Source of the DNA: Natronococcus occultus SP4
GTDB lineage: Archaea; Halobacteriota; Halobacteria; Halobacteriales; Natrialbaceae
Assembly (NCBI RefSeq): GCF_000328685.1
Contig: NC_019974.1
Location: 983,001-1,047,000, forward strand
Length of the DNA: 64,000 nucleotides
Reading direction: 5' to 3'
Shown here: piece by piece, positions 22,967 through 56,887 of the stretch
Position numbering within the stretch: the stretch's first letter is position 1
How the letters are laid out: every line of letters begins with the position of its first letter
The notes under the pieces: generated by a model
What the model was told of the DNA's origin: nothing
Database searches by the model: none
What the model saw: only the letters and a program-made list of their open reading frames with translations
Translations under genes and position numbers: made by a program

Positions 22967-23809
22967 TCAGCGCCACCGCGAGAACGGGAGCGGGTTCCGA
23001 ACGTCGAACCGGTCGGCCAGCGACCAGCGCCCGACGAGGACGCCCGCGAGCTTGACGCAGACGTACGCGAGGACGATTCCTGCGACGACGTCGATCGCCC
23101 AGTGGATCCCGAGATACATCGTCGAGATCGCGACGCTGATCGCGAGCGGGATCGCGACGATCGCCCACCGCGGGTAGACGTCCCGAGTCTGGTAGGCGAG
23201 GACGCCGACGGTGGCGGCAAGCGAGGTGTGCAGCGAGGGGAAGACGTTGGTGTTGCGGTTGACCTGTCGGGTGAGGTGCTGGTAGCGCGGGTAGGTGTCG
23301 TACATCAGGGCGTCGACGAGCTCGGGCATCATGTTCCGGGGGCCGTAGGCGATGACGAAGGTGTACAGCACCAGCCCGAGCACGTAGTTGAGGGTGTAGG
23401 CGGTCAGCAGCTCCCGCAGCGGTCGCGTGTTCGACAGCGCGAAGTACGCGACCACGGGAAAGACGAGCAGGAAGACGTAGCCGTAGATGTAGACGAACGA
23501 GAAGACGGCCGTCAGCGCCGGCGTCTCGTAGGACTGCAGCCAGAGGATGAACTGTCCCTCGATGTCGTAGATCGCCCAGGTGAGGTTCCAGCCGATCATC
23601 CAGGAGAGGTCGGGAACGACCTGCCTGGCGACGCTGTTTGCCAGCAGGACGACCGCGAGGACGACCGTGATCGGGGTGGCCGCACGCAGCCTGGCGAGCC
23701 ACTCCCGGCGCGTGTCCCGAAGCCGGTAGCGGCCGACGACGACGCCGATCCCCAGCAGCGTTAGCAGGCTGACGACGACCGCGAGCTGAACTAGCACCTG
23801 AACCAGCAT
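22967..23809 (-). CDS. PAP2-superfamily membrane protein (copy 1)
   Basis: The 280-residue protein has about six membrane helices and the PAP2 phosphatase motifs NRNTNVFPSLHTSLA (motif 2) and STMYLGIHWAIDVVAG (motif 3); AYGPRNMM lies at the place of motif 1. It resembles the AUR1/inositol-phosphotransferase-like PAP2 branch, so it may act on lipid phosphates or transfer head groups. Its ATG overlaps the stop of the upstream binding-protein gene (ATGA), so the two are coupled. A second copy of the pair lies at 25617-28257. Confidence 0.85.
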   Translation of the reverse strand: MLVQVLVQLAVVVSLLTLLGIGVVVGRYRLRDTRREWLARLRAATPITVVLAVVLLANSVARQVVPDLSWMIGWNLTWAIYDIEGQFILWLQSYETPALTAVFSFVYIYGYVFLLVFPVVAYFALSNTRPLRELLTAYTLNYVLGLVLYTFVIAYGPRNMMPELVDALMYDTYPRYQHLTRQVNRNTNVFPSLHTSLAATVGVLAYQTRDVYPRWAIVAIPLAISVAISTMYLGIHWAIDVVAGIVLAYVCVKLAGVLVGRWSLADRFDVRNPLPFSRWR

Positions 23810-25557
23810 CAGCGTCTCACCCGGAGCGTGCCGTCGTCGTAGTTGAAGCCGGCGTCCTCGAACGCGTCGACGGCGGCCGCGACGTCAAGGTCGCCGTCGG
23901 TACCGAAAAACGGGGTCGCCGGATCCTGCCCGTCCCAGGCGAGCTCCGCGGGGGTCCACTCCTCGGTGACCGGCGTCGCGGTCGGCGCGGCGTAGCCGTC
24001 GAAGACGTCCTCGGCGATCCAGGCCTTGTCGATCAACCGCGCGACGAGCCGACGGAACCGCGGGTTGGCGAACGGGGCCCGCCGCGCGTTGAAGCCGAGG
24101 TGGTAGAACCGCCAGGACGGCGACTCGAGGATCGCCGTCTCCGGGTCCGGCTCGACGTCGTCGAGGACGTACGTCTCGAGGGGGGCGCTCGTGACGTCGG
24201 CGTCGTCGCCGGTCACGAGCTCGATCGCCGACGTGCTCCGGGGGTCGATCCCCACCCGGAACTCCTCGACGGGCGGTTCCGGCAGGGCGACGTCCTCGCG
24301 ACGGGTGAAGTGGTCGTCGAACCGCTCGAGGGTGAGGTGTTCGCGTTCGGTCCGGCTCTCGAAGCGGAAGGGGCCGCTGCCGATCGGCGGGACGTTGTCG
24401 GTCGTGATCGCCTCGGTCGTCCCCTGGGCGACGCGCACGCCCGGGACCGTCGCGGACTCGGCCCGTTCGGTCCAGACGTGTTCGGGAAGGATCGGAACGG
24501 TGAGGGCCCGTTCGGCGACGGCCTCGCCCGCGTCGAGCTCGAGTTCGAGCTCGAGTTCGTCGTCGACGTCGATCGCGTCGACGGCCGCCGCCAACCCCCT
24601 GTACCGGGGCGGGGGCGACGTTCCTTCCTCGTCCTCGAGTTCGGTATCTTGCAGCAGTCGGTAGGTAAACGCGACGTCCTCGGCCCTGACGGGTTCGTCG
24701 TCGTGGAACCGACAGTCCTCGCGCAGCCGCACGCGGAGGGTGCCGTCGTCGTAGGTCCAGTCCTCGGCGAGCCAGGGTTCGATCTCGCCGTCGCGTTCGG
24801 TCGCCAGCGAGTCGTACACCAGTTCGAGGAACGGCTCGTCGTCGCGGTACTCGGCCGTCAGCGGGTTGAGGTTCTCGGAGGGGCGCGCGTCGGTGTGGGC
24901 GGTCCGCAGCCGCTCGACGTCCGACCCGGGCTCGAGTTCGAGATAGCCGAGCCGGGTCGCCGGGTGGGCCTCGCCCCAGCCGTCGAAGCGGTCGGTTCTG
25001 ACGAAGCGGTGCTCCTCTGGGACACAGATCGGAACGAACGGCTGCTCGCGGGCGACCGTCTCGAGCAGGTCGGCGACGATCGCCTCCCGCTCGTCGCCGT
25101 CGGCGCGGCGCTGGTCCTCGAGCAACTCGTCGACCTGCATGTTCGCGTAGCCGAAGGGGTTCTGCCAGCCCGATTCCTCGGCGTACCGCGAGTGCAACGC
25201 CTCGTAGAGAACGTCGGGATCGGTGCCGCCGGGGTGGACGCCGACGGAGAGATCGAACTCGTGGTTGATCAGGACCGCCCGCAGGTACTCCTCGTTCGAG
25301 CGCATGTCGATCGCGACGTCGACGCCGACCGCCTCGAGGACGTCCGCGATCGCTCGCGCCAGCCGGATCCCCTCCCGGTCCCCGTCCGCGGGGCGGGTGA
25401 CGATCGTCACCGAGAGCTGGTCGACGTCCTCGCGGTTGACGACGGTCCGGACCTGGCGAACGCAGCCGCTGGTCGCGACGGCGAGCCCGGCCGCGCCGGC
25501 GAGAACCGACCGCCGGCTTCGGGGCCGATCGGTCGGCGCCGTGTCCGCTTCGGTCAT
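23809..25557 (-). CDS. SBP_bac_5-type binding lipoprotein, apparently circularly permuted (copy 1)
   Basis: The 582-residue protein has a Tat lipoprotein signal (RSRRSVLAGAAG, lipobox ATSGC near residue 33). Homology to peptide/nickel-binding SBP_bac_5 proteins is clear but in altered order. Residues about 45-200 match the canonical C-terminal lobe (GVDVAIDMRSNEEYL, YANMQVDELLEDQRRADGDERE, QPFVPICVPEEHR). The canonical N-terminal start (ENLNPLTAEYRDDEPFLELVYDSL) appears only near residue 220. The protein ends at DAFEDAGFNYDDG, the middle of the usual fold. No permease or ATPase is nearby; a PAP2 gene follows by ATGA overlap. Confidence 0.85.
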   Translation of the reverse strand: MTEADTAPTDRPRSRRSVLAGAAGLAVATSGCVRQVRTVVNREDVDQLSVTIVTRPADGDREGIRLARAIADVLEAVGVDVAIDMRSNEEYLRAVLINHEFDLSVGVHPGGTDPDVLYEALHSRYAEESGWQNPFGYANMQVDELLEDQRRADGDEREAIVADLLETVAREQPFVPICVPEEHRFVRTDRFDGWGEAHPATRLGYLELEPGSDVERLRTAHTDARPSENLNPLTAEYRDDEPFLELVYDSLATERDGEIEPWLAEDWTYDDGTLRVRLREDCRFHDDEPVRAEDVAFTYRLLQDTELEDEEGTSPPPRYRGLAAAVDAIDVDDELELELELDAGEAVAERALTVPILPEHVWTERAESATVPGVRVAQGTTEAITTDNVPPIGSGPFRFESRTEREHLTLERFDDHFTRREDVALPEPPVEEFRVGIDPRSTSAIELVTGDDADVTSAPLETYVLDDVEPDPETAILESPSWRFYHLGFNARRAPFANPRFRRLVARLIDKAWIAEDVFDGYAAPTATPVTEEWTPAELAWDGQDPATPFFGTDGDLDVAAAVDAFEDAGFNYDDGTLRVRR

Positions 25558-25616
25558 TCGGTGGATACCTTCAGTTCAGCCAGTCGCGATATAACAGTAT
25601 TGCGTTGCCGATCGGT

Positions 25617-26480
25617 TCACTCTCGGTCGTCCCGATCCGGCAGTCGGCGAGCGACGTCTCGTCGAAGTTCGGCGATCGATCGCCGGCCGACGAGGACGTT
25701 CGAGAGCCAGACGGAGCCCACTGCCAGCGCGAGCCCGGCGACGACGTCGATCGCCCAGTGGATCCCCAGGTACATCGTCGAGAGCGCGACGCTGACCGCG
25801 AGGACGACCGCGATCGGAAACCACTTCGGGTAGCTCGAGCGCGTCTCGTAGGCGAAGATGCCGACGGTGGCGGCAAGCGAGGTGTGCAGGGAGGGGAAGA
25901 CGTTGGTGTTGCGGTTGACCTCGCGGGTGAGGTGTTGGTACTCGGGGCTGTTGTCGTACAGCATCGTCACCGTCAGCTCCTCGGGCATGACGTTTCGCGG
26001 CCCGTAGGCGATGACGAGCAGGTAAAACGCTAGGCCGATCACGTAGTTCAGCGAGTACGCCGTCAGCAGCCGACGGAAGGCCCGGGTGTCCGACAGCGCG
26101 AAATACGCAATTCCAGGGAAGATCAGCAGGAAGGCGTAGCCGTAGACGTAGATGAACGAGAAGTACGCCGTCAGCTCCCCGGTCGCGATCGACTGGAAGA
26201 CGAGGACGAACTCCCCCTCGAGATCGTAGAACGTCTCGGTCATGTGGACCCCGATCCGTTCCGAGATGCCCGGTCCGGCCTGTCGCATGACGCGGTTGAG
26301 CCACAACACGACGAGCAACACCGCGAACGCGGGTGCCGACGCCCGAACGCGGGGTCGCCACTCACGGACCGTCGCCACGAGGCGCTCGCGGCCGACGAAC
26401 GCCGCGACCGACACCACGAGCAGGAACGCGACGACAGCGGCGACCTGTGTCAGGACCTGCGTGAGGACCTCGGCGTACAT
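25617..26480 (-). CDS. PAP2-superfamily membrane protein (copy 2)
   Basis: This 287-residue paralogue of the gene at 22967 keeps the same membrane-helix layout and the motifs AYGPRNVMPEE, NRNTNVFPSLHTSLA and STMYLGIHWAIDVVAG. It starts 5 nt after the stop of the preceding binding-protein gene, so the pair is an operon. Differences are concentrated in the first 60 residues and in the C-terminal tail. It probably acts on a lipid or polyprenyl phosphate at the outer membrane face. Confidence 0.85.
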   Translation of the reverse strand: MYAEVLTQVLTQVAAVVAFLLVVSVAAFVGRERLVATVREWRPRVRASAPAFAVLLVVLWLNRVMRQAGPGISERIGVHMTETFYDLEGEFVLVFQSIATGELTAYFSFIYVYGYAFLLIFPGIAYFALSDTRAFRRLLTAYSLNYVIGLAFYLLVIAYGPRNVMPEELTVTMLYDNSPEYQHLTREVNRNTNVFPSLHTSLAATVGIFAYETRSSYPKWFPIAVVLAVSVALSTMYLGIHWAIDVVAGLALAVGSVWLSNVLVGRRSIAELRRDVARRLPDRDDRE

Positions 26481-26484
26481 CGGG

Positions 26485-28257
26485 TTACAGGCGGAGCCGC
26501 CCCTGGTCGTCGTACTGGTACCCTGCGGACTCTAACGCCGCCCTGGCGGTCTCGACGTCGAGATCGCCGTCGGAACCGAAAAACGGGGTCGCCGGATCCT
26601 GGCCGTCCCAGCCCAGCTCGTCGGGCACCCACTCCTCGGGCAACGGCGCCGCGGTCGGGGTCGCGTGACCGTCGAAGATCGCGTCGACGATCCAGGACGG
26701 ATCGAGCAGTCGTGAGACGATCCGTCTGGCGTGGGGGTTGCTGAACGGTTCGGCCCGGGTGTTGTACCCCACGTGGTAGAACGTCCGGGACGGCGCGGCG
26801 AGGTGGTCGACGTCGGGCTCGTCCGGAACGGAATCGAGCGCGTGGGCCTCGAGCATCGACGCCGTGAAGTCGGCGCCGTCGTTGGCGACGCGCTCGATCG
26901 AGGACGCACTGCCCGGATCGATCCCGAACTGGAGTTGCTCGACGCCGACCGCAGGCAGGTCGACGTCCTCGCGACGGGTGAAGTGGTCGTCGAACCGTTC
27001 GAGAGTGAGGTGCTCGCGCTCACTGTTGCTCTCGAAGCGGAAGGGACCGCTCCCGACCGGCGGGACGTTGTCCATCGTGACAAGTCCCCACTCGCCTTGC
27101 GTGGCGGTAAACGACGTCGTGTCCTCGGCACGGGACCGGATCTGGTCGCGCCACCGGTGTGCCGGAAGGATCGGGACGGTCAGTGCGCGTCTCGCGGCCT
27201 CGACGCCCGCAGCGAACCCGAGGCGGAGCTCGCGGTCGTCCTCGACGTCGACGGTGTCGACGGCCGTGGCGTGACCCCGGTACCGGGGCGGTGGTGACTC
27301 GAACTCGGCCCGACCCAGCGACGTGTCCTCGAGAAAGCGGTAGGTGAAGGCGACGTCCTCGGCTCTGACGGGTTCGTCGTCGTGAAACCGGCAGTCCTCC
27401 CGGAGCGTGATCCGGGCTCTGGCGACGTGGTCGTCGTCCGCGTCGGCGCGTTCTAGCGTTACGTCCTCGGCCAGCCAGGGGACCAGTTCGCCGTCGTGTT
27501 CGGTCGCCAGCGAGTCGTAGACGAGATCGATCGTCGACCCGCGTTCACGCAGCGTCGCCGATAACGGGTTCAGGTTCCGTGAGATCCGGGAGTCGGTGAC
27601 CAGCACGCGCAGCCGATCGACGTTCTCGGCGGGTTCGAGCCCGAGGTAGCCGTGACGACTCTCGGGGTGGTCGGCGCTCCAGCCCTCGAAGCGATCGGTC
27701 CGGGCCACGCGGTGTTCCTCGGGAAAGCAGATCGGATCGAAGGGTTTCTCCTCGGCCAGCGTTTCGAGCAGGTCGGCGACGATCGCCTCCCGCTCGTCAC
27801 CGTCGGCGCGGCGCTGGGCCTCGAGGGCGTCGTCGAACGGGATGTTGGCGAACCCGAACGGGTTCTGCCAGCCTGCTTCGTTCGCGTACGCCGAGTGCAG
27901 CGCCTCGTAGAGGAAGTCGGGATCGAACCCGGCGGGGTGGCGTCCGACGTAGAGATCGAAGTCGCGATCGATCAGTATCGTCTCGAGGAACTCCGATCGC
28001 GAGCGCATGTCGATGGAGGCGTCGACGCCGACGTCCTCGAGGTTGGCCTCGAGTTCGCGGGCGATGCGGACGGCTTCTCTGTCGCCGTCGGCGGGGACCG
28101 TGGTGATCGAGAGGGCAAGGCGGTCCATCTCCTGGTCGACGGCGCTCTCGACGCGATCGACACAGCCACTCGTCGGGAGGACCAGGCCGGTCGCGCCGGC
28201 AGCCAGCACCGCTCGCCGGCTGACGCCGTCGCCAGGATCGGTTGAGTCACAATTCAT
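26485..28257 (-). CDS. SBP_bac_5-type binding lipoprotein, apparently circularly permuted (copy 2)
   Basis: This 590-residue paralogue of the gene at 23809 has the same Tat lipoprotein leader (SRRAVLAAGATG, lipobox PTSGC) and the same rearranged order. The canonical C-terminal half comes first (GVDASIDMRSRSEFL, FANIPFDDALEAQRRADGDE, KPFDPICFPEEHR). The canonical N-terminal half follows (RNLNPLSATLRERG, FHDDEPVRAEDVAFTYRF, PPVGSGPFRFES) and ends at ALESAGYQYDD. The ATG at 28257 is preferred to one at 28296, because the longer form adds 13 residues including Cys that are not in copy 1. It is the first gene of the second cassette. Confidence 0.85.
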   Translation of the reverse strand: MNCDSTDPGDGVSRRAVLAAGATGLVLPTSGCVDRVESAVDQEMDRLALSITTVPADGDREAVRIARELEANLEDVGVDASIDMRSRSEFLETILIDRDFDLYVGRHPAGFDPDFLYEALHSAYANEAGWQNPFGFANIPFDDALEAQRRADGDEREAIVADLLETLAEEKPFDPICFPEEHRVARTDRFEGWSADHPESRHGYLGLEPAENVDRLRVLVTDSRISRNLNPLSATLRERGSTIDLVYDSLATEHDGELVPWLAEDVTLERADADDDHVARARITLREDCRFHDDEPVRAEDVAFTYRFLEDTSLGRAEFESPPPRYRGHATAVDTVDVEDDRELRLGFAAGVEAARRALTVPILPAHRWRDQIRSRAEDTTSFTATQGEWGLVTMDNVPPVGSGPFRFESNSEREHLTLERFDDHFTRREDVDLPAVGVEQLQFGIDPGSASSIERVANDGADFTASMLEAHALDSVPDEPDVDHLAAPSRTFYHVGYNTRAEPFSNPHARRIVSRLLDPSWIVDAIFDGHATPTAAPLPEEWVPDELGWDGQDPATPFFGSDGDLDVETARAALESAGYQYDDQGRLRL

Positions 28258-42399: not shown

Positions 42400-42522
42400 C
42401 GATTAATGGTCAGTTCGCACCTCTACGTAACGATTCGACCGAGTCAGATATAGCACCAGATCTGAATAGAGAATCCCGTGTTTCCAACTACTGCTGTAGA
42501 ACGGTTCAGGAGCGGTGGCGCG

Positions 42523-43647
42523 TTAAATGTAGCCGTCGTCGCTTCCTCGCTTCTCCCGGACTTCCTCCAACAAGTCTCTGTGGAGTTTGCGCCGCTCCTC
42601 TTCGGATCGCTCATCGTAGTGCTTCTCGATGATCTCTTCTGAGACATCACACCGCTCGCTGACCACCGACTTTGGGAGACCCAACCGCCGGAGCTGTGTG
42701 ATATGGCCGTGCCGCGCTGCATAGCTGGACTGGCTTGATGGGCACTTGCTTGCCTCGTGCTTCTTTTGTGCTGCCGAACATGCATCGATCTGCTTCCCGT
42801 GCGGACAGTTTTCGGTCACCGCACACGGGCGACTCCATTCGTAGAAATACAGCCGCATCGCCGTTTTCGATAACCGGCCATGCCTCGACGTCAACAGTGG
42901 ATCCCGTCCATGCTCATCAGTCACGGATTCCCGGGTGTCTTCGATGTAGTCGGCGAGGACGGTGGCGACTGCCTCATCAATCGGGATTTCTCGCTCGCTG
43001 TTCTGCCCATTTTTCAACCGGGTTCCCTGGTCTGGCCGGTGCCGGAACGCCAGATATGGGGCATCTCCGAGGTGGACATCGGCGACGTCCAGTGAATGGA
43101 TTGCTCCGGGGCGTCGGCCGGTCCGGCAGTGTAGCAGCCATACCACGTGTTCGCGGCTGGCATACCGGTATGTTCCGAGGTAGTCCAGAATCTCCGTGAC
43201 CTGCTCCGGTGCAAGTTCGATGTCGCGGACCCCGGTATCCGGCCCGAGGTCTGGGATCAGTACGGTCTCTGTCACCCCGGGCCGTACCGCGTTGATTGCC
43301 TCAAGGTACCGGAGGAACGATTGAAGTAGATACATTTCATCCCGCATCGTCTTCACTCCCAGTGACTCCACCGCGTCCGTCGCCTCGTCCCGCCGCCATA
43401 CCCGATACTCGTCCACGAAGCGGCCATCGATATCGTTCAAGTCCTCGACTCCCTGGATCGCACAGAACTCCACAACGTAGTCCAGCTTGCGGCGGTACTC
43501 GTCAACGGTCCCTGGCGTGAGTTCGGATGCACGCCGGTCCAGATACCGGTCAACACCCGCGGACGGTGCAAGCGGCTGAAGCGACGGCGATCTTTCCCGC
43601 AGCAGGCGGTGAAGCTCGTCCCAGGGAGGCTCCTCTTGACGAGACAT
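42523..43647 (-). CDS. tyrosine integrase (intact)
   Basis: The 374-residue protein is a haloarchaeal phage/plasmid-type tyrosine recombinase. The N-terminal core-binding domain (SAM-like, EYRRKLDYVVEFC) precedes the catalytic domain with the first Arg in CRTGRRPGAIHSL, RHGHITQL carrying the second box, and the nucleophile in EEIIEKHYDERS. A Cys/His zinc-like segment (CPHGKQIDACSAA) lies in the middle of the catalytic domain, as in its paralogues in this island. It probably integrates the element into tRNA-Arg. Confidence 0.88.
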   Translation of the reverse strand: MSRQEEPPWDELHRLLRERSPSLQPLAPSAGVDRYLDRRASELTPGTVDEYRRKLDYVVEFCAIQGVEDLNDIDGRFVDEYRVWRRDEATDAVESLGVKTMRDEMYLLQSFLRYLEAINAVRPGVTETVLIPDLGPDTGVRDIELAPEQVTEILDYLGTYRYASREHVVWLLHCRTGRRPGAIHSLDVADVHLGDAPYLAFRHRPDQGTRLKNGQNSEREIPIDEAVATVLADYIEDTRESVTDEHGRDPLLTSRHGRLSKTAMRLYFYEWSRPCAVTENCPHGKQIDACSAAQKKHEASKCPSSQSSYAARHGHITQLRRLGLPKSVVSERCDVSEEIIEKHYDERSEEERRKLHRDLLEEVREKRGSDDGYI

Positions 43648-43797
43648 GTGTTCGCGGACTACTGGTCCGGTACGGCAGCCAACCCGAAAAGTGGCTCATT
43701 CCGAGATACCTCTCGGCAGCATCGATACCGCCGCCGGGAATCGGTACAGAGTTCTCGGATAGGGACGGCTCTGACGGTCCTGTTAACCGCGCGACAA

Positions 43798-43815
43798 TCG
43801 CCACCATCGTGGCGA
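43798..43815. promoter_or_regulatory. inverted repeat upstream of the small-gene operon
   Basis: TCGCCAC (43798-43804), 4-nt spacer, GTGGCGA (43809-43815) forms a perfect palindrome in the 260-nt gap between the divergent integrase and the first small gene. It is a plausible operator for one or both. Confidence 0.4.
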
Positions 43816-43906
43816 ATTGCGACTCCTATACTACGACTGAAATGTCTCAAGGCGATAGCCGTCGTTTCTTCCACTTGTCCTCGGAAGCCCGAGGACGGTG
43901 ACACCG

Positions 43907-44023
43907 ATGGCAGGTGAATACGGAACCAGTTACAGCAAGTTCGAGTACGACTACGGGACGCATCGCTACGTCAATCCGTACCACGAGGAGGAAGAGTACG
44001 ACTGCGACCTCCTGGACATCTGA
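43907..44023 (+). CDS. 38-residue Tyr/Glu-rich peptide
   Basis: The ORF encodes a short peptide starting MAGEYGTSYSKFEYDYG and ending in an acidic EEEEYDCDLLDI. It starts the plus-strand gene run after the integrase and precedes the zinc protein at 44095. Composition fits the organism and no longer alternative exists on this strand. No family is recognised. Confidence 0.45.
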   Translation: MAGEYGTSYSKFEYDYGTHRYVNPYHEEEEYDCDLLDI

Positions 44024-44094
44024 TCCAGAGGCCATCCGGTCGTACTTTCCAGATTGACTGATCAAACACCTTCCCTCATATTTTGGGAAAAACC

Positions 44095-44217
44095 ATGTCC
44101 GTGAACTATCAGGACACGCCGGGACCGTACCGCTACGAAACATGGCCCGACCGGTCGGGTTGCCCGCACTGTACGCCTCGCCGTCGATGCTGGCGGCACC
44201 GCAAGACCAGTCGATGA
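44095..44217 (+). CDS. 40-residue zinc-finger-like peptide
   Basis: The short protein contains SGCPHCTPRRRCWRHRK, a CxxC plus C-x2-H arrangement that could bind one zinc. Its TGA overlaps the ATG of the next gene at 44214 (ATGA), which both supports this ORF and fixes the downstream start. It is likely a nucleic-acid-binding or structural peptide of the integrated element. Confidence 0.6.
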   Translation: MSVNYQDTPGPYRYETWPDRSGCPHCTPRRRCWRHRKTSR

Positions 44218-44804
44218 TCAGCATTCCACTCCACACAATGTTCGTTTCATTGGTGTTCTCGAACGAACTGTTCGTCGCCATTCTTCTCCTCAGTACGGCT
44301 GTTATCTTCCTCGCACCACGGTGGATGGCTGCCACCGTCTACGGCGGCGTTGGGAGCTGGCTTATTATTTCCAAGCTTACGGCGGTCACCTCTGGAACAG
44401 CTACCGAACAGTTCGTCGTCATGGCCCAGATGCTGCTCTGGCTCCTGCCTGGTATCATCCTGCTTGCCCGCACCGTGTTCGAACCTGTGGATGCCGATCA
44501 CACTACCCCTGGCATGAAGGACCCACGCTGGATCGTCAGAACCGTCGAATTCCTCGGACGACTGCTCGATGGCCCGGCCCCACCACAGCACCGGGGCGGG
44601 CACCAACCAGACCCAGATCCCGGCAACGAACAACCGCCGATGCCGCAGCCACCCGCACCAAACGGTCCCGTGGACCACGAGCAGGACCCGTCAGATGACG
44701 ACCATACCGGGCCGATCGACGTAATGCGGAACGATGTCCAATGGCTTGCCGGTGTTCTCGCCCCGGGGTCTGACCGTCGCGACGATGACACGGACCGACC
44801 ATGA
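44214..44804 (+). CDS. membrane protein of the integrated element
   Basis: The 196-residue protein starts with ATG at 44214, coupled to the preceding stop. Three hydrophobic helices occupy about residues 8-95 (FVAILLLSTAVIFLAP, GSWLIISKL, MLLWLLPGIILLA). A Pro/Asp/His-rich cytoplasmic or outer tail follows. Similar small membrane proteins occur in haloarchaeal viruses and plasmids, but no family is named. The next gene overlaps its stop by 4 nt. Confidence 0.6.
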   Translation: MISIPLHTMFVSLVFSNELFVAILLLSTAVIFLAPRWMAATVYGGVGSWLIISKLTAVTSGTATEQFVVMAQMLLWLLPGIILLARTVFEPVDADHTTPGMKDPRWIVRTVEFLGRLLDGPAPPQHRGGHQPDPDPGNEQPPMPQPPAPNGPVDHEQDPSDDDHTGPIDVMRNDVQWLAGVLAPGSDRRDDDTDRP

Positions 44805-45052
44805 ATCCGACAGAACCTCAGCTCCGTGACTGTGGCCACGTCGGGCAGATGGCGGGGATCTGCCAGTACAACGGCTGTGCCAAACAGCTGTGTCCGTACT
44901 GTCTCCAGCAATGCGAGACCTGCGGTCGCATCCTGTGTCCAGCCCACCAGTACTGGCGAGACGGCGGCCGCCGCGTCCTCTGTGAGCCCCACAACCGTGC
45001 CTACCTGATCAGGACCGTTGTCCGCTACGTGCTCCCCGGCATCCAAAACTAA
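44801..45052 (+). CDS. Cys-rich double zinc-binding protein
   Basis: The 83-residue protein has eight or more Cys and His (RDCGHV, CQYNGCAKQLCPYCLQQCETCGRILCPAHQYW, LCEPHN) arranged like a double zinc ribbon or B-box. It starts by ATGA overlap with the membrane protein gene. It probably binds nucleic acid or protein partners within the element. Function unknown. Confidence 0.65.
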   Translation: MNPTEPQLRDCGHVGQMAGICQYNGCAKQLCPYCLQQCETCGRILCPAHQYWRDGGRRVLCEPHNRAYLIRTVVRYVLPGIQN

Positions 45053-45063
45053 CGAACAATACA

Positions 45064-45684
45064 ATGACCAACGATACACCATTCGACCGCACCGATACCT
45101 TCGAACAGACCGAGCAGACCCGGGTCGGGGAACGCGGCAGTCCCGTCCTCGAAGAAGAACGGACCGCGACCGATCTCGCGTCCCTGACCGAAACCACCGA
45201 ACAGACCGCTGTTGCCCTGTGCACCTGTGGCGCACCGTACACTGCGGCCCCGGAGGTGCATCGCTGCGTCCAGTGCGATGCCCTGGCCTGTCCCCGGTGC
45301 GTGCTTCGGTTGCACCGCCGCCAGTACTGTCCCCGCTGCGCCGAACACGTCTACGAACTGGACAAACGGGTGTTCCTGTCCCTGCTGTTCCTGCAGCAGG
45401 AGGTGATCGCACTGGAGGATCTCCTGCAGGTCGAGACCGTTGCCGAGGCCCCCGTCGAAATCGCGGTGGATCATGCGGCCACCGTACTCACCAACAACAA
45501 CTACGTCGATACCGACACCGGGACCCTCACCCCAGACGGCCAGGAAGCCCTCCATGTCGGCAAACAGCTGTACGGGGAAGACGGCGACGTCCAGTCCGTA
45601 GTCCAGCAACTCCGCGTCCAGGACGTTTCCAACACCGACAGTCCCTCTCCCACGCTCTACGATCAGCTAGCTCCCGGACCATGA
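45064..45684 (+). CDS. zinc-binding protein with helical C-terminus
   Basis: The 206-residue protein has a disordered acidic N-terminus (about 50 residues), a Cys/His region (ALCTCGAPYTAAPEVHRCVQCDALACPRC, YCPRCAEH) that resembles the zinc modules of the preceding gene, and a winged-helix-like C-terminal half (VDHAATVLTNNNYVDTDTGTLTPDGQEALHVGKQL). It could be a DNA-binding regulator. Its TGA overlaps the next ORF's ATG at 45681. Confidence 0.6.
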   Translation: MTNDTPFDRTDTFEQTEQTRVGERGSPVLEEERTATDLASLTETTEQTAVALCTCGAPYTAAPEVHRCVQCDALACPRCVLRLHRRQYCPRCAEHVYELDKRVFLSLLFLQQEVIALEDLLQVETVAEAPVEIAVDHAATVLTNNNYVDTDTGTLTPDGQEALHVGKQLYGEDGDVQSVVQQLRVQDVSNTDSPSPTLYDQLAPGP

Positions 45685-45764
45685 CTGGGTGCACATCGTA
45701 CACGGCGTGGAAACACCATCCACTGGTAAAACACTCGGTTCCCCAGCCGGCCCGGTATGGTTAA
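45681..45764 (+). CDS. 27-residue bridging ORF
   Basis: A tiny ORF begins by ATGA overlap with the preceding stop, and its own stop overlaps the start of the primase-like gene by 8 nt. The overlaps at both ends suggest it is translated, at least to couple the two neighbours. It has no domain; the sequence is His- and Pro-containing. Confidence 0.4.
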   Translation: MTGCTSYTAWKHHPLVKHSVPQPARYG

Positions 45765-46132
45765 CACAGCGGCTATCCCGTCGAAGTTACAGGACCGGGC
45801 CCAGTGGGTCTGCTGGCGGATCGTCCACCGTAACAATCGCCCGGCCAAGATCCCGATCGACCCCGGAACCGGCAACTATGCCACCGTCACCGATCCGGCG
45901 ACCTGGACCGAGTACTCCACGGCACAGGACTACTACCACTGCGAGGACGTGGACGGACTGGGGTACGTGTTCACCGCGGACGGACCATACGCCGGTGTCG
46001 ATCTTGATGACGTCCGCAACCCGGACACCGCCCTAGTCGAAGAATGGGCGCTCGATGTGCTGTTGACACTGGACTCCTACACCGAACGCAGCCCCAGCGG
46101 CCGCGGCTACCACGTTCTCGTCGAACGCTTGA
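45757..46132 (+). pseudogene. truncated AEP/PrimPol-type primase-polymerase
   Basis: The first 125 residues match the N-terminal domain of NrS-1-like primase-polymerases: QWVCWRIVHRNNRPAKIPIDP, then the catalytic VDLDDV (DxD motif I) and SPSGRGYHVLVE (sGxGxH motif II). After the VLVE strand at about 46,132 homology stops abruptly and the sequence becomes AT-rich; the frame closes at 46206. The complete protein should have several hundred more residues. It would replicate the element's DNA, so loss of the rest explains its immobility. Confidence 0.75.
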
Positions 46133-46189
46133 CGTATACAACGTTTTATTTCAATCTTGGTGCAATGCCTCTCGGCTGGCGCGTGATTA

Positions 46190-46348
46190 TCAGACATCAC
46201 GCCTGAGGAGAAACTTGAAAAGTTCCTCCTGTTCAGCCCCAAATCCGGTTTTCAGGATGTTTTTTATATACTTCTCCAGTCCGAGATCCTGCCCAGGCCC
46301 CAGGAACTGTATGTTCCAAGCCTTGATTGGTGACCCATTACACGATCA
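46190..46348 (-). pseudogene. C-terminal gene fragment of unknown family
   Basis: On the minus strand a short frame ends in a plausible C-terminus (GPGQDLGLEKYIKNIL, FGAEQEELFKFLLRRDV) and is preceded in frame by a stop. Composition suggests former coding sequence, but no family is recognised. It sits directly after the primase truncation point. Confidence 0.3.
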
Positions 46349-46390
46349 CCTGCGCGTGTAACTTAACCTGGATACGCTTACAACGGCCTA

Positions 46391-46408
46391 GGCTCTGTTG
46401 AAATCCTC
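46391..46408. repeat. possible insertion-sequence end
   Basis: GGCTCTGTTGAAATCC resembles the termini of haloarchaeal IS6-type elements. No transposase of matching orientation is adjacent, so it may be a solitary end left by deletion. Confidence 0.3.
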
Positions 46409-46538
46409 TTCTTTGGACACTTACTTCCACGAAATAACAATGCCCTGCACCTGCACATGTAACATTAAGTATGGATGTGATTGGCACGAAATCGACATGC
46501 CCTGTGAGCTTTATTTTCCTCGCTGCTGGCCTCTATTC

Positions 46539-46964
46539 ATGGCTCAACCCACACTTCACGCTATCAGTAGCGAGCAGACGGTGAGTGTCAATGCGGGGGC
46601 AACCGTCGATCAGGTGATCACTGAAGTACGGGAGTTTACACCTGTTGATGACGGCGTTTCCGTCTATTATGTCTACGTGCGAAACAACGGGGAACTCGTG
46701 GGCGTCGTCTCGATGCGGGAGCTACTGAACGCAAAGGGCAGCGATCCAGTCTCCGAGATCATGACGGTCGATCTCGTGACCGTCACCACGTCGGACTCGC
46801 TCCAGCACGCGGTTCATCAATTCACCGCAAACAGGTTTGCCGTCCTTCCCGTCGTCGATGAATCGGGGCAGTTCAGCGGCGTCCTCAGAGCGAATGACGT
46901 CATCGACGCTCTCGACGAACAGACGACCAAGCAGATCCTCAAACAAGCAGGGCTCTGTCTGTGA
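46539..46964 (+). CDS. stand-alone CBS-domain protein, MgtE-type
   Basis: The 141-residue protein has two CBS-like repeats (VVSMRELLNAKGSDPVSEIMTVDLVTVTTSD, FAVLPVVDESGQFSGVLRANDVIDAL). It aligns with the cytoplasmic half of the full MgtE at 50302 (VSMRELLNA and the second repeat). It therefore looks like the detached Mg2+-sensing half of an MgtE; the nearby MgtE at 48180 has only the membrane half. Opposite strands argue against a simple split gene. Start ATG at 46539 gives the conserved N-terminus. Confidence 0.75.
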   Translation: MAQPTLHAISSEQTVSVNAGATVDQVITEVREFTPVDDGVSVYYVYVRNNGELVGVVSMRELLNAKGSDPVSEIMTVDLVTVTTSDSLQHAVHQFTANRFAVLPVVDESGQFSGVLRANDVIDALDEQTTKQILKQAGLCL

Positions 46965-46967
46965 ATG

Positions 46968-47145
46968 AAGCCCGGAGATACCAGAACGGCATCTCAGACA
47001 GTATTTTGTCGGGCAAACGACGGTGACGTGAACGGGTGATCTGCGACCGACGGTTTCGGCGACGCTGCCGAACAGAACGTGTATGGTTCCCCGTTTGCCG
47101 GACTACGCTTACAATGTGACCACATCGTTCGCGTCAACATAGCAA
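46968..47145 (-). pseudogene. decayed 3' end of a UspA gene
   Basis: The DNA aligns along its length with 49785-49930, the 3' end of the intact UspA gene (shared GACGGTGACG, ACGACGGTTTCGG-like and ACACATCGTT-like blocks), but substitutions and small gaps break the frame. It follows the CBS gene in the same way that uspA follows a CBS remnant at 49650-49740. Confidence 0.65.
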
Positions 47146-47240
47146 AGATCGATTAGCCGGAAGTTCGGCTTCAGCCGTCACTGTTTCGGTGCGTGGCATA
47201 GGTTGCATTACACAGGTGCCTAAAACCCAGTGAGGTGATT

Positions 47241-47909
47241 TTATTCGAGGAGACTGTCGTCCCCGGTCGCCATATAGACCGTCCGAGCGGCGACGTTGGT
47301 CGCGTGGTCAGCGACCTGTTCGATGTCAGTGACTGTAAGCAGCAACCGGAGCACGTCGTCGTGGTACTCGTCGGGATTGACGGCCTCGGTGTCGAGGGTG
47401 ATCGTTTCGCCGAATATCTGTCGGCTCGCGTGGTTTGCGAGCTGATCTATCTGGTCGTCGCGGGCGATGATTTCTCGACATGCGTTCGTGTTGGCCTCTT
47501 CGAAGGCGTCGATTGCATCGGCGACCATCGTCGCACTCTCCTGAGCCATCGATGGAATATCGACGTCAGTGTCCATCGCCGGGAGGCCGGCTTCCGTTCG
47601 CTCGGCAATCTTCACCGCGATGTCACCAATACGTTCGAGTTCGGTGCTAATCTTGAACGACGCGGCGACGAACCGAAGGTCGCCGGCAACCGGTTGTTGA
47701 AGTCCCAGCAGGTCAATGCATTTGCGTTCAATCTTGAGATAGCGCTCGTTTATTCGTTCTTCGCTTTCGATGACTTGGCGGGCTAACTCCGTATCGTGGT
47801 CAGCGAGGGCTGTTACAGAGCGGTCGAACTGCATGTGGACGAGCTCGCCCATCTCGATAACCCCCTTACGGAGCTTTTTGAGTTCTTGTTGGTAGCTTTC
47901 TCGTGCCAT
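47241..47909 (-). CDS. phoU: PhoU-family protein
   Basis: The 222-residue protein is a two-repeat PhoU: LGELVHMQFDRSVTALADHD-like first bundle, with RYLKIERKCIDLLGLQQPVAGDLRFVAASFKISTELERIGDIAVKIAERT, and a second bundle ending IEQVADHATNVAARTVYMATGD. The E-x3-D metal-binding motifs of both bundles are present. PhoU proteins regulate phosphate transport and metal-linked signalling. Here it lies among Mg2+-transport genes rather than pst genes. Start ATG at 47909 removes a long unlikely extension. Confidence 0.9.
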   Translation of the reverse strand: MARESYQQELKKLRKGVIEMGELVHMQFDRSVTALADHDTELARQVIESEERINERYLKIERKCIDLLGLQQPVAGDLRFVAASFKISTELERIGDIAVKIAERTEAGLPAMDTDVDIPSMAQESATMVADAIDAFEEANTNACREIIARDDQIDQLANHASRQIFGETITLDTEAVNPDEYHDDVLRLLLTVTDIEQVADHATNVAARTVYMATGDDSLLE

Positions 47910-48179
47910 TGTGTCGGTTTGTGCAATTGATTCGATGGAATGATCAAAACTGTTGGTATGATCTTTCAGTATTGGGCTACACCAAATGTGATCGTCAGTA
48001 GCGCCAAGGCAGACGGATCTCACTATGTCGTGCCCATCTGATACCGGCAGAACAGCCATCAGGATCAGTGTTCAGCTGGTGCATATTCACGACGCTATCA
48101 GTGGTGAAACGCCACCCCCGAATAGGTCGGCGGGGTGCGTTACCCCAGAAGCCGGCTTCGAAGAGGTACCGGCTATCGC

Positions 48180-48908
48180 TTACAGCGCACCTGGGAGCAG
48201 CCAGATCGCCAGGCCGAAGTAGATGAGCACGGCGGTAAGGTCTTTGAACGTCGTCACGACGGGGTCGGAAACCGCAGCAGGATCGAATCCCAGCTTGTGT
48301 GCGACCCACGGAATCAGGTACCCAAACACACTGGCGATCGTACAGACCGCCACCAGGGCGGTGAACAGCACCATCGACAGCGCTGCGTTACCCTGCCAGA
48401 CCAATGCGATGGTTGCGGCGATGCCACCGATAATGAGACCGATGACGAGTCCAAAGACTCCCTCTCGGGCAAGATGTTTCACCGCATTCTTGTCATCGAT
48501 ATGACCGGTAGCGAGCCCACGCACGAAGATTGTGGACGCCTGGGTCCCGACGTTGCCACCCATGTCCATAATCACCGGGACGAAAATGGCCAGCAGCGCG
48601 ATCTCGGCTGCTTCCAGTGACCCTTCAGCTCCACCAATAACTCCGCCGGCGAGCAGGCCGCCTGCCAGTGCAACCAGCAACCAGGGAAGGCGGAGCCAGA
48701 TTTTCTTTGGGAGTGACGAGGTGAGAATGAGTTCACTGCGCGTCAGCTCTGCGTCCTTGATATTCTCACCACGAATGGCGATCCCGCCACCAGTGGTCTT
48801 GGTCCCGGTATCCGTGACTCCGCCGTCCGGACGCAGTTCCGCATCTTCGTTTGCTGTCGATTCTTCGGTCTCGTTCTCGAACTCGTCTGCGGGTGTTTTA
48901 GCAGTCAT
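48180..48908 (-). CDS. mgtE: MgtE-type divalent-cation transporter, membrane half only
   Basis: The 242-residue protein has an acidic N-terminus and five membrane helices of the MgtE family: WLLVALAGGLLAGGVI, IFVPVIMDMGGNVGTQASTIFVRGLATGHID (the conserved MGGN-GTQ-S signature) and GYLIPWVAHKLGFDPAAVSDPVVTT. The N- and CBS domains of canonical MgtE are missing. It should still form the Mg2+ pore. Its ATG is overlapped by a 47-codon ORF (48898-49041). Regulation by the separate CBS protein at 46539 is possible. Confidence 0.88.
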   Translation of the reverse strand: MTAKTPADEFENETEESTANEDAELRPDGGVTDTGTKTTGGGIAIRGENIKDAELTRSELILTSSLPKKIWLRLPWLLVALAGGLLAGGVIGGAEGSLEAAEIALLAIFVPVIMDMGGNVGTQASTIFVRGLATGHIDDKNAVKHLAREGVFGLVIGLIIGGIAATIALVWQGNAALSMVLFTALVAVCTIASVFGYLIPWVAHKLGFDPAAVSDPVVTTFKDLTAVLIYFGLAIWLLPGAL

Positions 48909-49041
48909 AGTGTTCCTCCTGAGCTGGCGAGAAGACGCCGGAGAACGCGCTGTCGAGCAGGCTGCGAATTTGTTCTTCGAGAGTCGGGATTGTGGAGCTC
49001 TCCGCGCTGTTCAGTTGTGAGTGGTGATTGGATTCCCACAT
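48898..49041 (-). CDS. small ORF overlapping the mgtE start (family member A)
   Basis: The 47-residue ORF ends 11 nt inside mgtE and contains TLEEQIRSLLDSAFSGVFSPAQ. The same pattern occurs in the two other small ORFs at 51314 and 49371, each placed the same way before an MgtE-type start. Heptad-like leucines suggest an amphipathic helix. It is likely translated and coupled to MgtE synthesis. No named family is recognised. Confidence 0.55.
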   Translation of the reverse strand: MWESNHHSQLNSAESSTIPTLEEQIRSLLDSAFSGVFSPAQEEHYDC

Positions 49042-49370
49042 ACGGTTTGGGATGGGAAGTTTTCCGTATTAAATACAACGATTTAGTATTTGAAATAAAT
49101 ACGCGAGGGGTGCCCTACAGGGCGGACGCGAGGCCCGCTGAGGGCGTACAATGGGGCGGCTCTGCCGTTCAGCGGAGGTGGTCAGATCGACATCGCAGCA
49201 GCCGCGTGGCTCTTCGTGTCACCTCCTACCCGATCCAACATGTCCGGGGTAGCAGTCGCTGGCAAAGCTGGACACGTCGCTCAAGAGACATTGGTTACTC
49301 TGGAACGACGTGTCTGTGGTCGTGACTTTCAGATCCGAAGGCGTGCTCGATCCGCAAGGAAGCGGCTTGC

Positions 49371-49541
49371 TCAGCGTGCCTTGCGTTCTCCATATCGGTT
49401 CCTCCGTTCAGACCCGCAGAGGACGCCGGCAAAGGCGCTGTCGAGCAGGCTGAGCACTAGTTCGGAAAGAGGCTGGCCACGGATATCCCTGATAGTACTG
49501 CCACTCTGATTCGTCTCGAAAATTGCGTCTTGATTACGCAT
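49371..49541 (-). CDS. small ORF of the MgtE-leader family, orphan (member C)
   Basis: The 56-residue ORF contains PLSELVLSLLDSAFAGVLCGSE, closely matching members A and B. A start-like ATGGAG at 49393 overlaps it as in the other copies, but the downstream frame closes within about 35 codons with no MgtE homology. It is probably a remnant whose transporter has been deleted. Confidence 0.45.
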   Translation of the reverse strand: MRNQDAIFETNQSGSTIRDIRGQPLSELVLSLLDSAFAGVLCGSERRNRYGERKAR

Positions 49542-49639
49542 ACAGCCGAATACGGTTTTCCAGCGACCATTAACGTTTTCATGACGAGACCATGTTGTGG
49601 TAAAATGTCACGCAATACGTTCCCACACACTGTTGGGCG

Positions 49640-49745
49640 ATTCTCACTACACTCATCTTTGGTCCATGAGACAGCGCATTTCTCGGCGTCGTGTAGGCCA
49701 ATGACGTGGTCGATGCACTCATTGAACTGAAAACTAAGTAAATTC
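49640..49745 (+). pseudogene. decayed CBS-domain gene end
   Basis: The sequence encodes, with small shifts, HFSxS followed by ANDVVDALIELKTK. This matches the QFSGVLRANDVIDALDEQTTK end of the CBS gene at 46539. It is followed by the uspA gene on the other strand, mirroring the first module. Confidence 0.5.
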
Positions 49746-49806
49746 CTTAACCAAGCGGGTTCTGGCTGTTAGCGAAGCCCAGAATACCAGAACGACATCT
49801 CAGACG

Positions 49807-50241
49807 TCACTCGGTCGGGCGAACGACGGTGACGGGAACGGGCGATCTACGAACGACGGTTTCGGAGACGCTGCCGAGCAGAAAGCGGGCGATTCCCTGT
49901 TTTCCGTGACTCCCAATTACGATTTGGCTCACATCGTTTGTCTCCGCGTACCTAATGATCGTTTGAGCAGGGTTTCCGGCTTCGATTTCAGTGACAACGG
50001 ATACCTCATCAGGGAGTGTTTCGCGGGTTGTGCCAAGGATGTGTTCACCCTTTTCGCGTTCGTTCGAAAACTCGTCATCTTGCGTGTAGCCGGGATAGGC
50101 CCGCTTTCGGCTGTAATCGACCATCGGAATTATCACGTACAATAGAGTCAATGAATCGTCTGGAAACTGTTCGGAGGCGTACTCAGCGGCGCTTTGAGCC
50201 GCCGGCGATCCATCGACCGGGACGAGAACGCAGTCGGTCAT
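49807..50241 (-). CDS. universal stress protein UspA
   Basis: The 144-residue protein has the UspA fold with the ATP-binding glycine pattern near the C-terminus: VLVPVDGSPAAQSAAEYA, LLYVIIP, and IVIGSHGKQGIARFLLGSVSETVVRRSPVPVTVV. It is a stand-alone UspA, expected to bind ATP and dimerise. It ends the second cargo module, next to mgtE. Start ATG at 50241 is conserved; the frame upstream adds a basic extension. Confidence 0.9.
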   Translation of the reverse strand: MTDCVLVPVDGSPAAQSAAEYASEQFPDDSLTLLYVIIPMVDYSRKRAYPGYTQDDEFSNEREKGEHILGTTRETLPDEVSVVTEIEAGNPAQTIIRYAETNDVSQIVIGSHGKQGIARFLLGSVSETVVRRSPVPVTVVRPTE

Positions 50242-50301
50242 ATGTTCCCCTTTGACGCGGATGACGAAGAAATCGAGGGCACACCGCGACAAGCGGTGTC
50301 C

Positions 50302-51327
50302 TTACAGCAGTTCGGCGAGCAGAACTGTCGCAAGTCCGAAGTAGATCAGGAGCGCAGTAACGTCTTTGACTGTGGTGATCAACGGGTCGGATGCTGCCGC
50401 CGGGTCGAAGCCGAGTTTGTGCATCAGCCACGGGATGACGTAGCCGACGACCGAGGCGACAATACACACAGTGAGGAGGCCGACGAAGACGACCATTGCC
50501 AATTCGAACGCGTACGGCTCGTCGATCTGCCAGATGTAAGCGGCGGCAGCACCGACCGAACCGATCATTAGGCCAATGAGGAACCCAATAAAGCCTTCGC
50601 GCAAGAAATGTTTGACCGCGTTCCGATCATCGATATGACCGAGTGCAAGCCCCCGTACGAAGATCGTCGAGGCCTGCGTCCCGACGTTCCCGCCCATATC
50701 CATGATCACGGGAACAAAGAAGGCGAGCGCGACAACGGCTTCGAGGGTGTCCTCGTAGGCTTCAATAACGCCACCTGCGAGGAGCCCGCCTGCGAGTGCG
50801 ACCAACAACCACGGCATTCGGAGCCGGAGGATGCGTGAAATCGACGATTCGAGGATGGCGGAACTACGCGAGACTTCGACGTCGGTGAAGGTGAAGCCGG
50901 CGCTCTTCAGGATGTCCTCGGTTGCTTCCTCTTCGACCACTTCGAGCATCTCCTCGGTGCGGATGATCCCCTCCAATCGCCCGCGGTCATTGATGATCGG
51001 GAGGGCAGAGAAGTCCGTATCGGCTAACTCATGTGCAACGAGTTCGGGATCTGCCTCCTCGTTGATTGTAATGAGATCCGTCTCCATGTGATCGGAGACG
51101 AGGTCGTCTTCAGGGGCGTTGAGCAGCTCCCGCATCGACATAACACCGACGAGTCGGTCGGCGTCGTCAACGATGTACAGGTAGTAGACGGTCTTCTCTT
51201 CGTCTTCCGGTTCGAACTCTCGGAACTTGTCGATCGCTACCCCGATGAACTCGTCGTCTTTCACAGCGACGTATTCTTCGTCGGCCACCTCACCAACTTC
51301 GTCGGCGTGAAACTCAGCGTCCTCCAT
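50302..51327 (-). CDS. mgtE: MgtE-type transporter with CBS domains
   Basis: The 341-residue protein has a shortened N-terminal part (MEDAEFHADEVGEV), two CBS repeats (GVMSMRELLNAPEDDLVSDHMETDLITINEE, FSALPIINDRGRLEGIIRTEEML) and the MgtE membrane half with MDMGGNVGTQASTIFVRGLALGHIDDRN and GYVIPWLMHKLGFDPAAASDP. It should import Mg2+ with CBS-based gating. The start at 51327 is inside the preceding small ORF (51314-51478). An upstream ATG at 51420 would give a basic, unlikely leader. Confidence 0.9.
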   Translation of the reverse strand: MEDAEFHADEVGEVADEEYVAVKDDEFIGVAIDKFREFEPEDEEKTVYYLYIVDDADRLVGVMSMRELLNAPEDDLVSDHMETDLITINEEADPELVAHELADTDFSALPIINDRGRLEGIIRTEEMLEVVEEEATEDILKSAGFTFTDVEVSRSSAILESSISRILRLRMPWLLVALAGGLLAGGVIEAYEDTLEAVVALAFFVPVIMDMGGNVGTQASTIFVRGLALGHIDDRNAVKHFLREGFIGFLIGLMIGSVGAAAAYIWQIDEPYAFELAMVVFVGLLTVCIVASVVGYVIPWLMHKLGFDPAAASDPLITTVKDVTALLIYFGLATVLLAELL

Positions 51328-51478
51328 ACGACTCACCTCGGATGTGCGACCGAATGACGCCCGCAAATTCGCCCTCAAGGAGGGCGAGAACGAGTTCTTC
51401 GAGTGTACGACCGCGCTCACGGGTTGCTTCTTTAACTGGCGTTTCTGCGTGACGCGTGGAATGGTGTATTTCCAGCAT
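51314..51478 (-). CDS. small ORF overlapping the mgtE start (family member B)
   Basis: The 54-residue ORF contains RTLEELVLALLEGEFAGVI and ends GESYGGR, overlapping the mgtE start by 14 nt. It matches members A and C in the core of about 20 residues, with the same position relative to an MgtE gene. An upstream in-frame start at 51505 is possible. Coupled translation with mgtE is likely. Confidence 0.55.
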   Translation of the reverse strand: MLEIHHSTRHAETPVKEATRERGRTLEELVLALLEGEFAGVIRSHIRGESYGGR

Positions 51479-51606
51479 ACACAGACGGGTTTTTAATTGG
51501 TACAAATATAAGTTATGTGGGCATAGTACCGCTTGTGATTAAATGACGTGGAGAGAGTAGCGAATCTCTCATGCTGAAACGATACATGTGCTTCCGGTAC
51601 TGATAG

Positions 51607-52074
51607 TTAGAGGGCTCGGTCGAGATTGTGGATGAGGCACGCAAGGCCGAGTTCTCGAAATTGCTTCCACCAGCGTCGTGAACGGACGAACGCACCGTAT
51701 TTACGCTTGAGTCGAAAGTTCACCGTTTCGCTCTGGTACCGTTGGACGTAGAGGTCTGAATCCAGCCGAGTGTTCCACGCTTTTTACAGTGATGAGAACT
51801 CACGGTGTTTGATGAGTGGCCGAATCCTGTTCTCGCAGGCCGTTGCTCGAATCTGCTGATCGTCGTAGCCTTTGTCTCCAAGAAGAACATCAACTTCAGC
51901 CGTGTTGCGGTTGATGAGTGAAGGTGCGATCTGTGTATCGTGCTTGCGGGTCGTTGTAATGTGGAGATCAAGGACAGCGTTCGCTCTGGTATCGACTAAG
52001 AGTGTGACTTTCAGTTGCTGAATCGTCAGCCTCGTTGAATACCGAGAAGGGACCCACGATTTCAAATGGACCAA
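51607..52074 (-). pseudogene. IS5-family transposase remnant
   Basis: One frame encodes the C-terminal two thirds of a haloarchaeal IS5-type DDE transposase: VTLLVDTRANAVLDLHITTTRKHDTQ, LLGDKGYDDQQIRATA, RPLIKHREF, then an in-frame stop (TAA at about 51786), then KAWNTRLDSDLYVQRYQSE, LKRKYGAFVRSRRWWKQFRELGL up to the natural stop. The N-terminus is missing. Premature stop and truncation show it is dead. No terminal repeats are evident. Confidence 0.75.
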
Positions 52075-52304
52075 CGATAGCTAGTAACGAAAATTAGTAC
52101 AGCGGGATGACTTCATTTGTTGCACGATCAAACCAGTAAATTATCGATTCACTATCTGTGTCTGCTGATCAATCTATCTTCAGATGTGGTTCGTACCCTT
52201 CCTGAATACTAATCCACTTGTTCCATCCTGCTTTTATTCCTTGTTCTTGTGAGAACCCCTTCAAATGATCAGCCAATTTCTCTGGCTCATCCCAATGAGA
52301 ATAT

Positions 52305-52519
52305 CGGCTGTAGATCGGCCTTGTGAATCAGTTATGAACGGTCGATCGAGCTCGATCAACACCGAATATCTCGAGAGCTCGAACAGTATTCGAAAGCAAG
52401 AGTCCAGCAAGATGAAGCTGAATACTGAGCTTCATCACCAGTCGCGGTGTTGCTTCTCGCTCCACAAAATCCAAGTCGAACTGGCCGATACTAGGAGTGA
52501 GACGTGCGTTTTCGGGCGT
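52305..52519 (-). pseudogene. N-terminal fragment of an IS6-family transposase
   Basis: The frame encodes ENARLTPSIGQFDLDFVEREATPRL, LHLAGLLLSNTVRALEIFGVDRARSTVHN and, after a one-base shift, IHKADLQP. This is the start of the ISH-type IS6 transposase. The catalytic domain is absent, and the sequence 52085-52300 that follows holds no recognised gene. The probable start codon has become ACG. Confidence 0.65.
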
Positions 52520-52550
52520 GAATTACTCAGAAAACGCACGTCTCACTCCT
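52493..52550. repeat. perfect 21-bp inverted repeat
   Basis: Arms 52493-52513 and 52530-52550 are exact reverse complements with a 16-nt loop. Each arm encodes ENARLTP when read outward, which is the beginning of an IS6-type transposase, so two such ends seem to be joined head to head. The right arm runs into the integrase gene. Confidence 0.75.
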
Positions 52551-53519: not shown

Positions 53520-53584
53520 TCTTCTATGATTGCAACCCCTACACCACCGGTGGATTTATGACTCCTAGTGAGCGACCTAGAGGT

Positions 53585-53689: not shown

Positions 53690-53692
53690 TGC

Positions 53693-55763: not shown

Positions 55764-55880
55764 GGTTCGCTCGGATGCGAACCTCACGATGCCTACAAAT
55801 CGAGATATTGAACGGTGGTCTAGGCGGTTGTATCTGCGAGAAACCGGTGTCTTACCATTCTTCTCGCAATCTGATCTATT

Positions 55881-56885: not shown

Positions 56886-56887
56886 AG

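Follow-up and report, generated by a model that had tools for sequence, protein, structure and literature searches.

The window analysed here, a stretch of 64,000 nucleotides from Natronococcus occultus SP4, encodes two paralogous lipoproteins, SBP1 and SBP2 (identity ~60%), and raises the question of whether a substrate-binding protein (SBP) of the SBP_bac_5 family can carry the parts of its fold in rotated order and nevertheless be complete, and what a protein of this kind would serve. The genes and the segments discussed below are as follows, with "canonical" denoting the usual order of the family.

26485..28257, minus strand: SBP2 (P0002), paralogue of SBP1, 590 amino acids, read as permuted (Pfam and canonical-profile matches)
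27619..28128, minus strand: SBP2 residues 44-213, canonical C-terminal third (Pfam, canonical profile)
26488..27618, minus strand: SBP2 residues 214-590, canonical N-terminal two thirds (Pfam, canonical profile)
25617..26480, minus strand: PAP2_3 membrane enzyme between SBP2 and SBP1, 287 amino acids (Pfam PF14378, 5.4e-19)
23809..25557, minus strand: SBP1 (P0001), SBP_bac_5 lipoprotein, 582 amino acids, read as permuted (Pfam, PDB-sequence and canonical-profile matches, AlphaFold2 model)
25462..25557, minus strand: SBP1 residues 1-32, Tat signal peptide with lipobox, SRRSVLAG...TSGC (sequence and conservation)
24922..25428, minus strand: SBP1 residues 44-212, canonical C-terminal third, about DppA 339-507 (sequence and fold matches)
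24910..24936, minus strand: SBP1 new junction from canonical C-terminus to canonical N-terminus, around residues 208-216 (approximate)
23812..24921, minus strand: SBP1 residues 213-582, canonical N-terminal two thirds, about DppA 1-347 (Pfam, PDB sequences, structure)
22967..23809, minus strand: PAP2_3 membrane enzyme, 280 amino acids (Pfam PF14378, 1.1e-19; PSLH and HxxxD motifs)

The start of the 280-residue PAP2 gene (23809-22967) overlaps the stop of SBP1, SBP2 starts with the ATG at 28257 (an alternative TTG start is open at 28296), and the four-gene run SBP2, PAP2, SBP1, PAP2 appears to have arisen when an SBP-PAP2 pair was duplicated in tandem. The PAP2 gene at 26480-25617 lies inside the interval described by a first-pass annotation of this DNA but is absent from it. 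Farther along the window, positions 42500-59500 show a lower codon-position GC contrast and include an integrase-like gene (42523-43647, identified by eye), possibly an integrated element.

The first-pass annotation had claimed that in both proteins the canonical C-terminal part of SBP_bac_5 directly follows the signal peptide, that the canonical N-terminal part begins near residue 220, and that the chain ends where the usual one is about two thirds complete. This rotated order was borne out by Pfam, by PDB sequences, by a canonical profile and by a structure model: residues ~45-210 correspond to the last ~160 residues of DppA or NikZ, and residues ~211-582 to the first ~340. Against the Pfam SBP_bac_5 profile (length 368), residues 258-578 of SBP1 matched positions 1-285 (E 5.5e-44) and residues 257-586 of SBP2 matched positions 1-284 (E 8e-38), with scores of 151 and 131 bits, respectively, compared to a curated cut-off of 32.4. 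The N-terminal part (N-part) taken alone gave weak matches near the other end of the profile (SBP1: 296-358, E 0.054; SBP2: 290-361, E 0.0013). When PDB sequences were searched with phmmer, query residues 226-523 aligned with residues 18-297 of chain 4pfu and query residues 59-197 with residues 367-512; the 5u4o and 1xoc chains likewise matched both query parts in rotated order with abutting boundaries. None of the PDB chains listed spans the new junction, all matches being one-sided stretches.

We also compared the proteins with a profile made from 12 canonical proteins (479 columns). Most of 30 proteins that share the window pair's cut site (type I), the pair included, covered columns ~329-470 first and then ~4-330; for L019, L026, L075, L076 and L073 the canonical N-terminal part alone was scored. 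The N-part match reached canonical column 456 of 479, and all 12 canonical controls were linear, with the caveat that the same 12 rows had built the profile. On a doubled profile, several members gave a single continuous run (e.g., P2, columns 393-804; L062, L063 and L064, from about 338 to 800-813), and for the other members HMMER returned two separate rotated matches with no continuous path. The rotated order was maintained across relatives at 30-84% identity and the "AGFxYDDGxLRV-stop" C-terminus was conserved among them, indicating that the order is not due to chance. The Tat motif (R15, R16) and the lipobox cysteine (C32) were invariant in 20 of 20 sequences. An assembly or annotation artefact was ruled out as well, given that paralogues, many independent genomes and the conserved C-terminus all agree. 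Since every solved SBP_bac_5 member that we found runs in the canonical N-to-C order and SBP1 and SBP2 do not, we regard the two as a permuted variant and not as typical members of the family; the Pfam model itself does not demand that order.

Similar evidence came from structure models. In the full-length AlphaFold2 model, built on an alignment of 20 relatives (pLDDT 78.8, pTM 0.80), residues 215-582 superposed on DppA 1-347 of 507 (Z 20.6, 3.0 Å) and residues 213-582 on NikZ 3-328 of 493 (Z 22.3) in sequence-order alignments, which cover the C-terminal part (C-part) of the full model only, ~320 residues. A model topology in canonical order had been set beforehand as the outcome that would refute permutation; instead, residues 211-582 superposed on the first two thirds of the canonical chain and the order was not canonical. 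Residues 44-214 folded alone produced a weak model (pLDDT 63, pTM 0.43), which is unsurprising in a fragment that does not form a domain by itself. The matches of this lone N-part model were nearly all to SBP_bac_5 chains and fell in the C-terminal third of those chains (NikZ 327-457, DppA 339-480), with a modest best Z of 8.4 at 5.6 Å, and they start where those of the C-part stop (NikZ 327/328). All parts of the fold are therefore present, the C-part matching DppA 1-347 and the N-part DppA 339-480 as well as the canonical profile. The listed sequence and structure matches belong to SBP_bac_5 (cluster C), in the absence of a direct comparison with cluster B.

Pfam annotates one stretch alone in SBP1, which pipelines would read as truncation, that is, as an SBP that lost its C-terminal third and had an unrelated N-terminal domain added in front. 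Such an origin is ruled out because both sequence and fold relate the N-part to the missing third, with the boundary at the right place; the ~170 N-terminal residues proved to match the C-terminal end of SBP_bac_5, with low model confidence, and the preference of the first-pass annotation for permutation over truncation was upheld. We give truncation practically no credence. In the absence of an experimental structure of any permuted member, we nonetheless conclude with high confidence that SBP1 and SBP2 each contain the whole of an SBP_bac_5 (cluster C) binding protein in circularly permuted form, with the anatomy given above.

Another SBP of the same genome is cut at a second site (type II):

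G000:C1:544045-545883 (L077:16046-17887): type-II SBP L004, in an Opp/Dpp-type operon

L004 begins with just the last ~80 canonical residues, the type-II cut being ~80 residues from the canonical C-terminus. Canonical-order relatives of type II occur in other haloarchaea at 55-68% identity. In the two swapped parts, L004 is 58% and 55% identical to canonical-order L144, and 56% and 56% identical to canonical-order L147, while the permuted L143 is 67.9% and 68.4% identical to L147, to which it is nearer than to L004 (55%). Judged from these sequence comparisons, type II is a clean natural circular permutation.

The order seen in both types could also be produced by a chimera, in which the N-part of a different SBP paralogue was fused to a truncated SBP, an origin weighed by Brautigam et al. 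for the Treponema protein Tp0684 (PMC4990184). Type I lacks a known close relative in canonical order against which both halves could be compared, and its N-part scores below the C-part against the canonical profile, both of which leave room for a chimera. Opposed to it are the type-II proteins, in which both parts are equally close to one canonical relative (68%/68%), and a quick tree of type I from the C-part alone, which returned the same groups as the full-length tree, implying that the N-part does not pull type I elsewhere. We consider a chimera very unlikely and retain permutation as the explanation.

For the number of origins, trees were computed after the rows of all proteins had been rearranged into a common order. 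In the careful tree, type I fell into three places, namely the PAP2-linked together with the Dpp-linked proteins, the L005-like proteins, and the Archaeoglobus-like proteins, the last of which sit beside canonical haloarchaeal proteins (support 96/94). Type I as a single clade was rejected (p-AU 0.0006), and remained so without the Archaeoglobus-like rows (p-AU 0.019) or without the L005-like rows (p-AU 0.00015); type II as a single clade was also rejected (p-AU 0.0007). The AU test thus rules out a single origin of type I, with the caution that the rejection is weakest for the L005-like rows, which lie at the end of a long branch. Since a single origin was rejected for both cut sites, permutation either recurred or reverted. 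One ancient permutation per cut site followed by reversions to the canonical order would be consistent with the type-I cut site being identical in all clades, and reversions remain possible given that counts of changes on the tree cannot separate gain from loss; yet the rejected single clades at both sites speak against this scenario, and each reversion would need the same rare event backwards. We find it improbable and favor recurrent permutation.

We then determined how widely the rotated order occurs using a junction profile of 215 positions across the new junction. The best match was below 1e-20 in ~112 of 145 haloarchaeal genomes (an approximate count), and nearly all listed haloarchaeal matches cross the junction (profile 1-215), so that the search in other haloarchaea proposed by the first-pass annotation did recover the same order. 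The Natronococcus occultus SP4 genome encodes 8 SBP_bac_5 proteins, of which 5 are permuted, with two cut sites represented among them. The genome also holds a complete DppABCDF operon (L077:7981-14422) whose SBP is permuted at the window pair's site, apparently with a separate origin. In the rest of the phylum, junction-profile matches were one-sided except in 4 Archaeoglobus-like genomes of one family, where the SBP is rotated at the type-I site and adjoins DppBCDF; in one of these (G256) the sole SBP_bac_5 gene is permuted, and Pfam itself splits it into 290-367 and then 1-287. A permuted Archaeoglobus-like SBP (L112:4730-6472) carries an extra hydrophobic C-terminal tail with an arginine-rich end.

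Among bacteria, 4 genomes, 151 Chloroflexota and 150 Pseudomonadota gave one-sided junction-profile matches only, at the thresholds used. A search of plasmids revealed members on alphaproteobacterial plasmids of Nitratireductor, Microvirga, Ketogulonicigenium, Roseomonas, Maritalea and Neorhizobium; four of them (L187, L188, L189 and L190) were confirmed as rotated by profile and grouped among haloarchaeal Dpp-type rows in a quick tree. Some of these four adjoin hydantoinase or M28 peptidase genes. Because the 150-genome Pseudomonadota sample was one-sided and yet plasmids hold members, the bacterial range is undersampled. A restriction to haloarchaea is ruled out by the Archaeoglobus-like genomes and the Alphaproteobacteria, and the rotation is not special to the window pair, to Tat lipoproteins or to haloarchaea, but belongs to a large, apparently polyphyletic set.

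The gene context of the window pair bears on what these proteins serve. The window and each of the 29 other loci sampled from its clade have a PAP2 gene downstream of one or more SBP genes, on the same strand; two second SBP copies (L015 and L017) lack it. The PAP2 gene usually lies within a few tens of bases of the SBP gene, across several families, and RefSeq likewise annotates an SBP-PAP2 pair in Haloferax gibbonsii. The PAP2 partners match PF14378 above the cut-off and conserve the PSLH and HxxxD motifs, with H194, H236 and D240 nearly invariant in 27 sequences. No Dpp permease was found in the fetched flanks of the window pair or of its clade's loci. Outside this clade, the SBP gene adjoins those of DppB and DppC, in most cases together with DppD and DppF; the permuted SBPs of the sister clades probably deliver ligand to DppBCDF importers.

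For the window clade, we infer, as a tentative proposal that may well be wrong, that the SBP serves the neighboring PAP2 enzyme rather than feeding an ABC importer; there are no data on its ligand, on contact with PAP2 or on PAP2 activity. A permease working in trans is an alternative of equal weight. In E. coli, MppA lends its ligand to OppBCDF, and by analogy the window SBPs could be orphan receptors that lend ligand to a Dpp/Opp permease encoded elsewhere, with PAP2 functionally separate. Dpp operons are indeed present elsewhere in the genome, but all sampled loci of the clade, which span several families, have PAP2 downstream and usually so close, and this argues against such a separation. 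We regard lending to a distant permease as possible, short of probable.

In each SBP, a full cluster C protein of the venus-flytrap type, the permutation joins the ancestral N- and C-termini, which are neighbors in domain I, and places the new ends in domain III, behind the motif "AGxxYDDGxL". The rotated order, its conservation, the completeness of the fold and the gene context are observed, whereas how the permuted form arose and works can be outlined only by inference. Most likely, an SBP gene would have been duplicated in tandem or fused, and a new start and a new stop would then have arisen inside the copies, several times independently. By analogy with established families, and without binding data, the product would be a Tat-exported lipoprotein that closes round its ligand outside the cell. 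After permutation, the lipid anchor at the N-terminus would sit on domain III instead of domain I, which would alter how the cleft is oriented to the membrane, and an anchor in that position may suit a PAP2-linked role. In the weakest step of the proposal, the ligand caught by the lipoprotein would be phosphorylated or lipid-linked, and PAP2 would cleave it or transfer its head group at the outer face. The broadest reading, a conjecture that we advance with considerable doubt, is that SBP_bac_5 proteins of archaea and bacteria have been permuted repeatedly, at least three times at one cut site and twice at another, and that one permuted clade has given up ABC transport and now supplies the receptor in a new membrane system of two parts, the other being the PAP2 enzyme.

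SBP_bac_5 is a very large, well-studied family of nutrient receptors, and its permuted members carry the plain database label "ABC transporter substrate-binding protein". L143 and L147, at ~68% identity and differing chiefly in chain order, constitute a rare natural experiment on folding, anchoring and permease docking, and the strictness with which SBP and PAP2 genes go together suggests an as yet undescribed membrane pathway. We found no description of the SBP-PAP2 pairing in the open-access papers searched. As the first-pass annotation had supposed, no published permuted SBP_bac_5 was found in the open-access literature, nor, beyond Tp0684, anything relevant on permutation in haloarchaea. 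The paper on OpuAC, considered as another permuted case, made no mention of the terms sought and is not counted here.

The window proteins resemble DppA, OppA, NikA, NikZ and AccA (SBP_bac_5, PF00496, cluster C) in family match, structural parts and lipoprotein export, and their sister clades share the DppBCDF operon setting of that family. They differ from it in being rotated, with new termini in domain III, and in that their clade has a PAP2 enzyme as neighbor in place of the permease (a usual, not obligatory, neighbor of the family). Their partner genes match PAP2_3 (PF14378) and keep its PSLH and HxxxD motifs; the substrate is unknown, and the pairing with an SBP is the difference. Tp0684 (TpMglB-2) of Treponema pallidum, assigned to "cluster Bc", is a naturally circularly permuted solute-binding lipoprotein, and its authors raise membrane anchoring as a possible reason for the permuted topology (PMC4990184). 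Like the window proteins it is a complete SBP with rotated topology and a lipoprotein, but it has a cluster B glucose-binding fold, belongs, judging by the cluster C matches listed for the window proteins, to another SBP family and is cut at another site. Natural permutation of an SBP is therefore already known from cluster B and, as far as the open literature goes, not described for SBP_bac_5, in which the surprise lies in its recurrence and in the association with PAP2.
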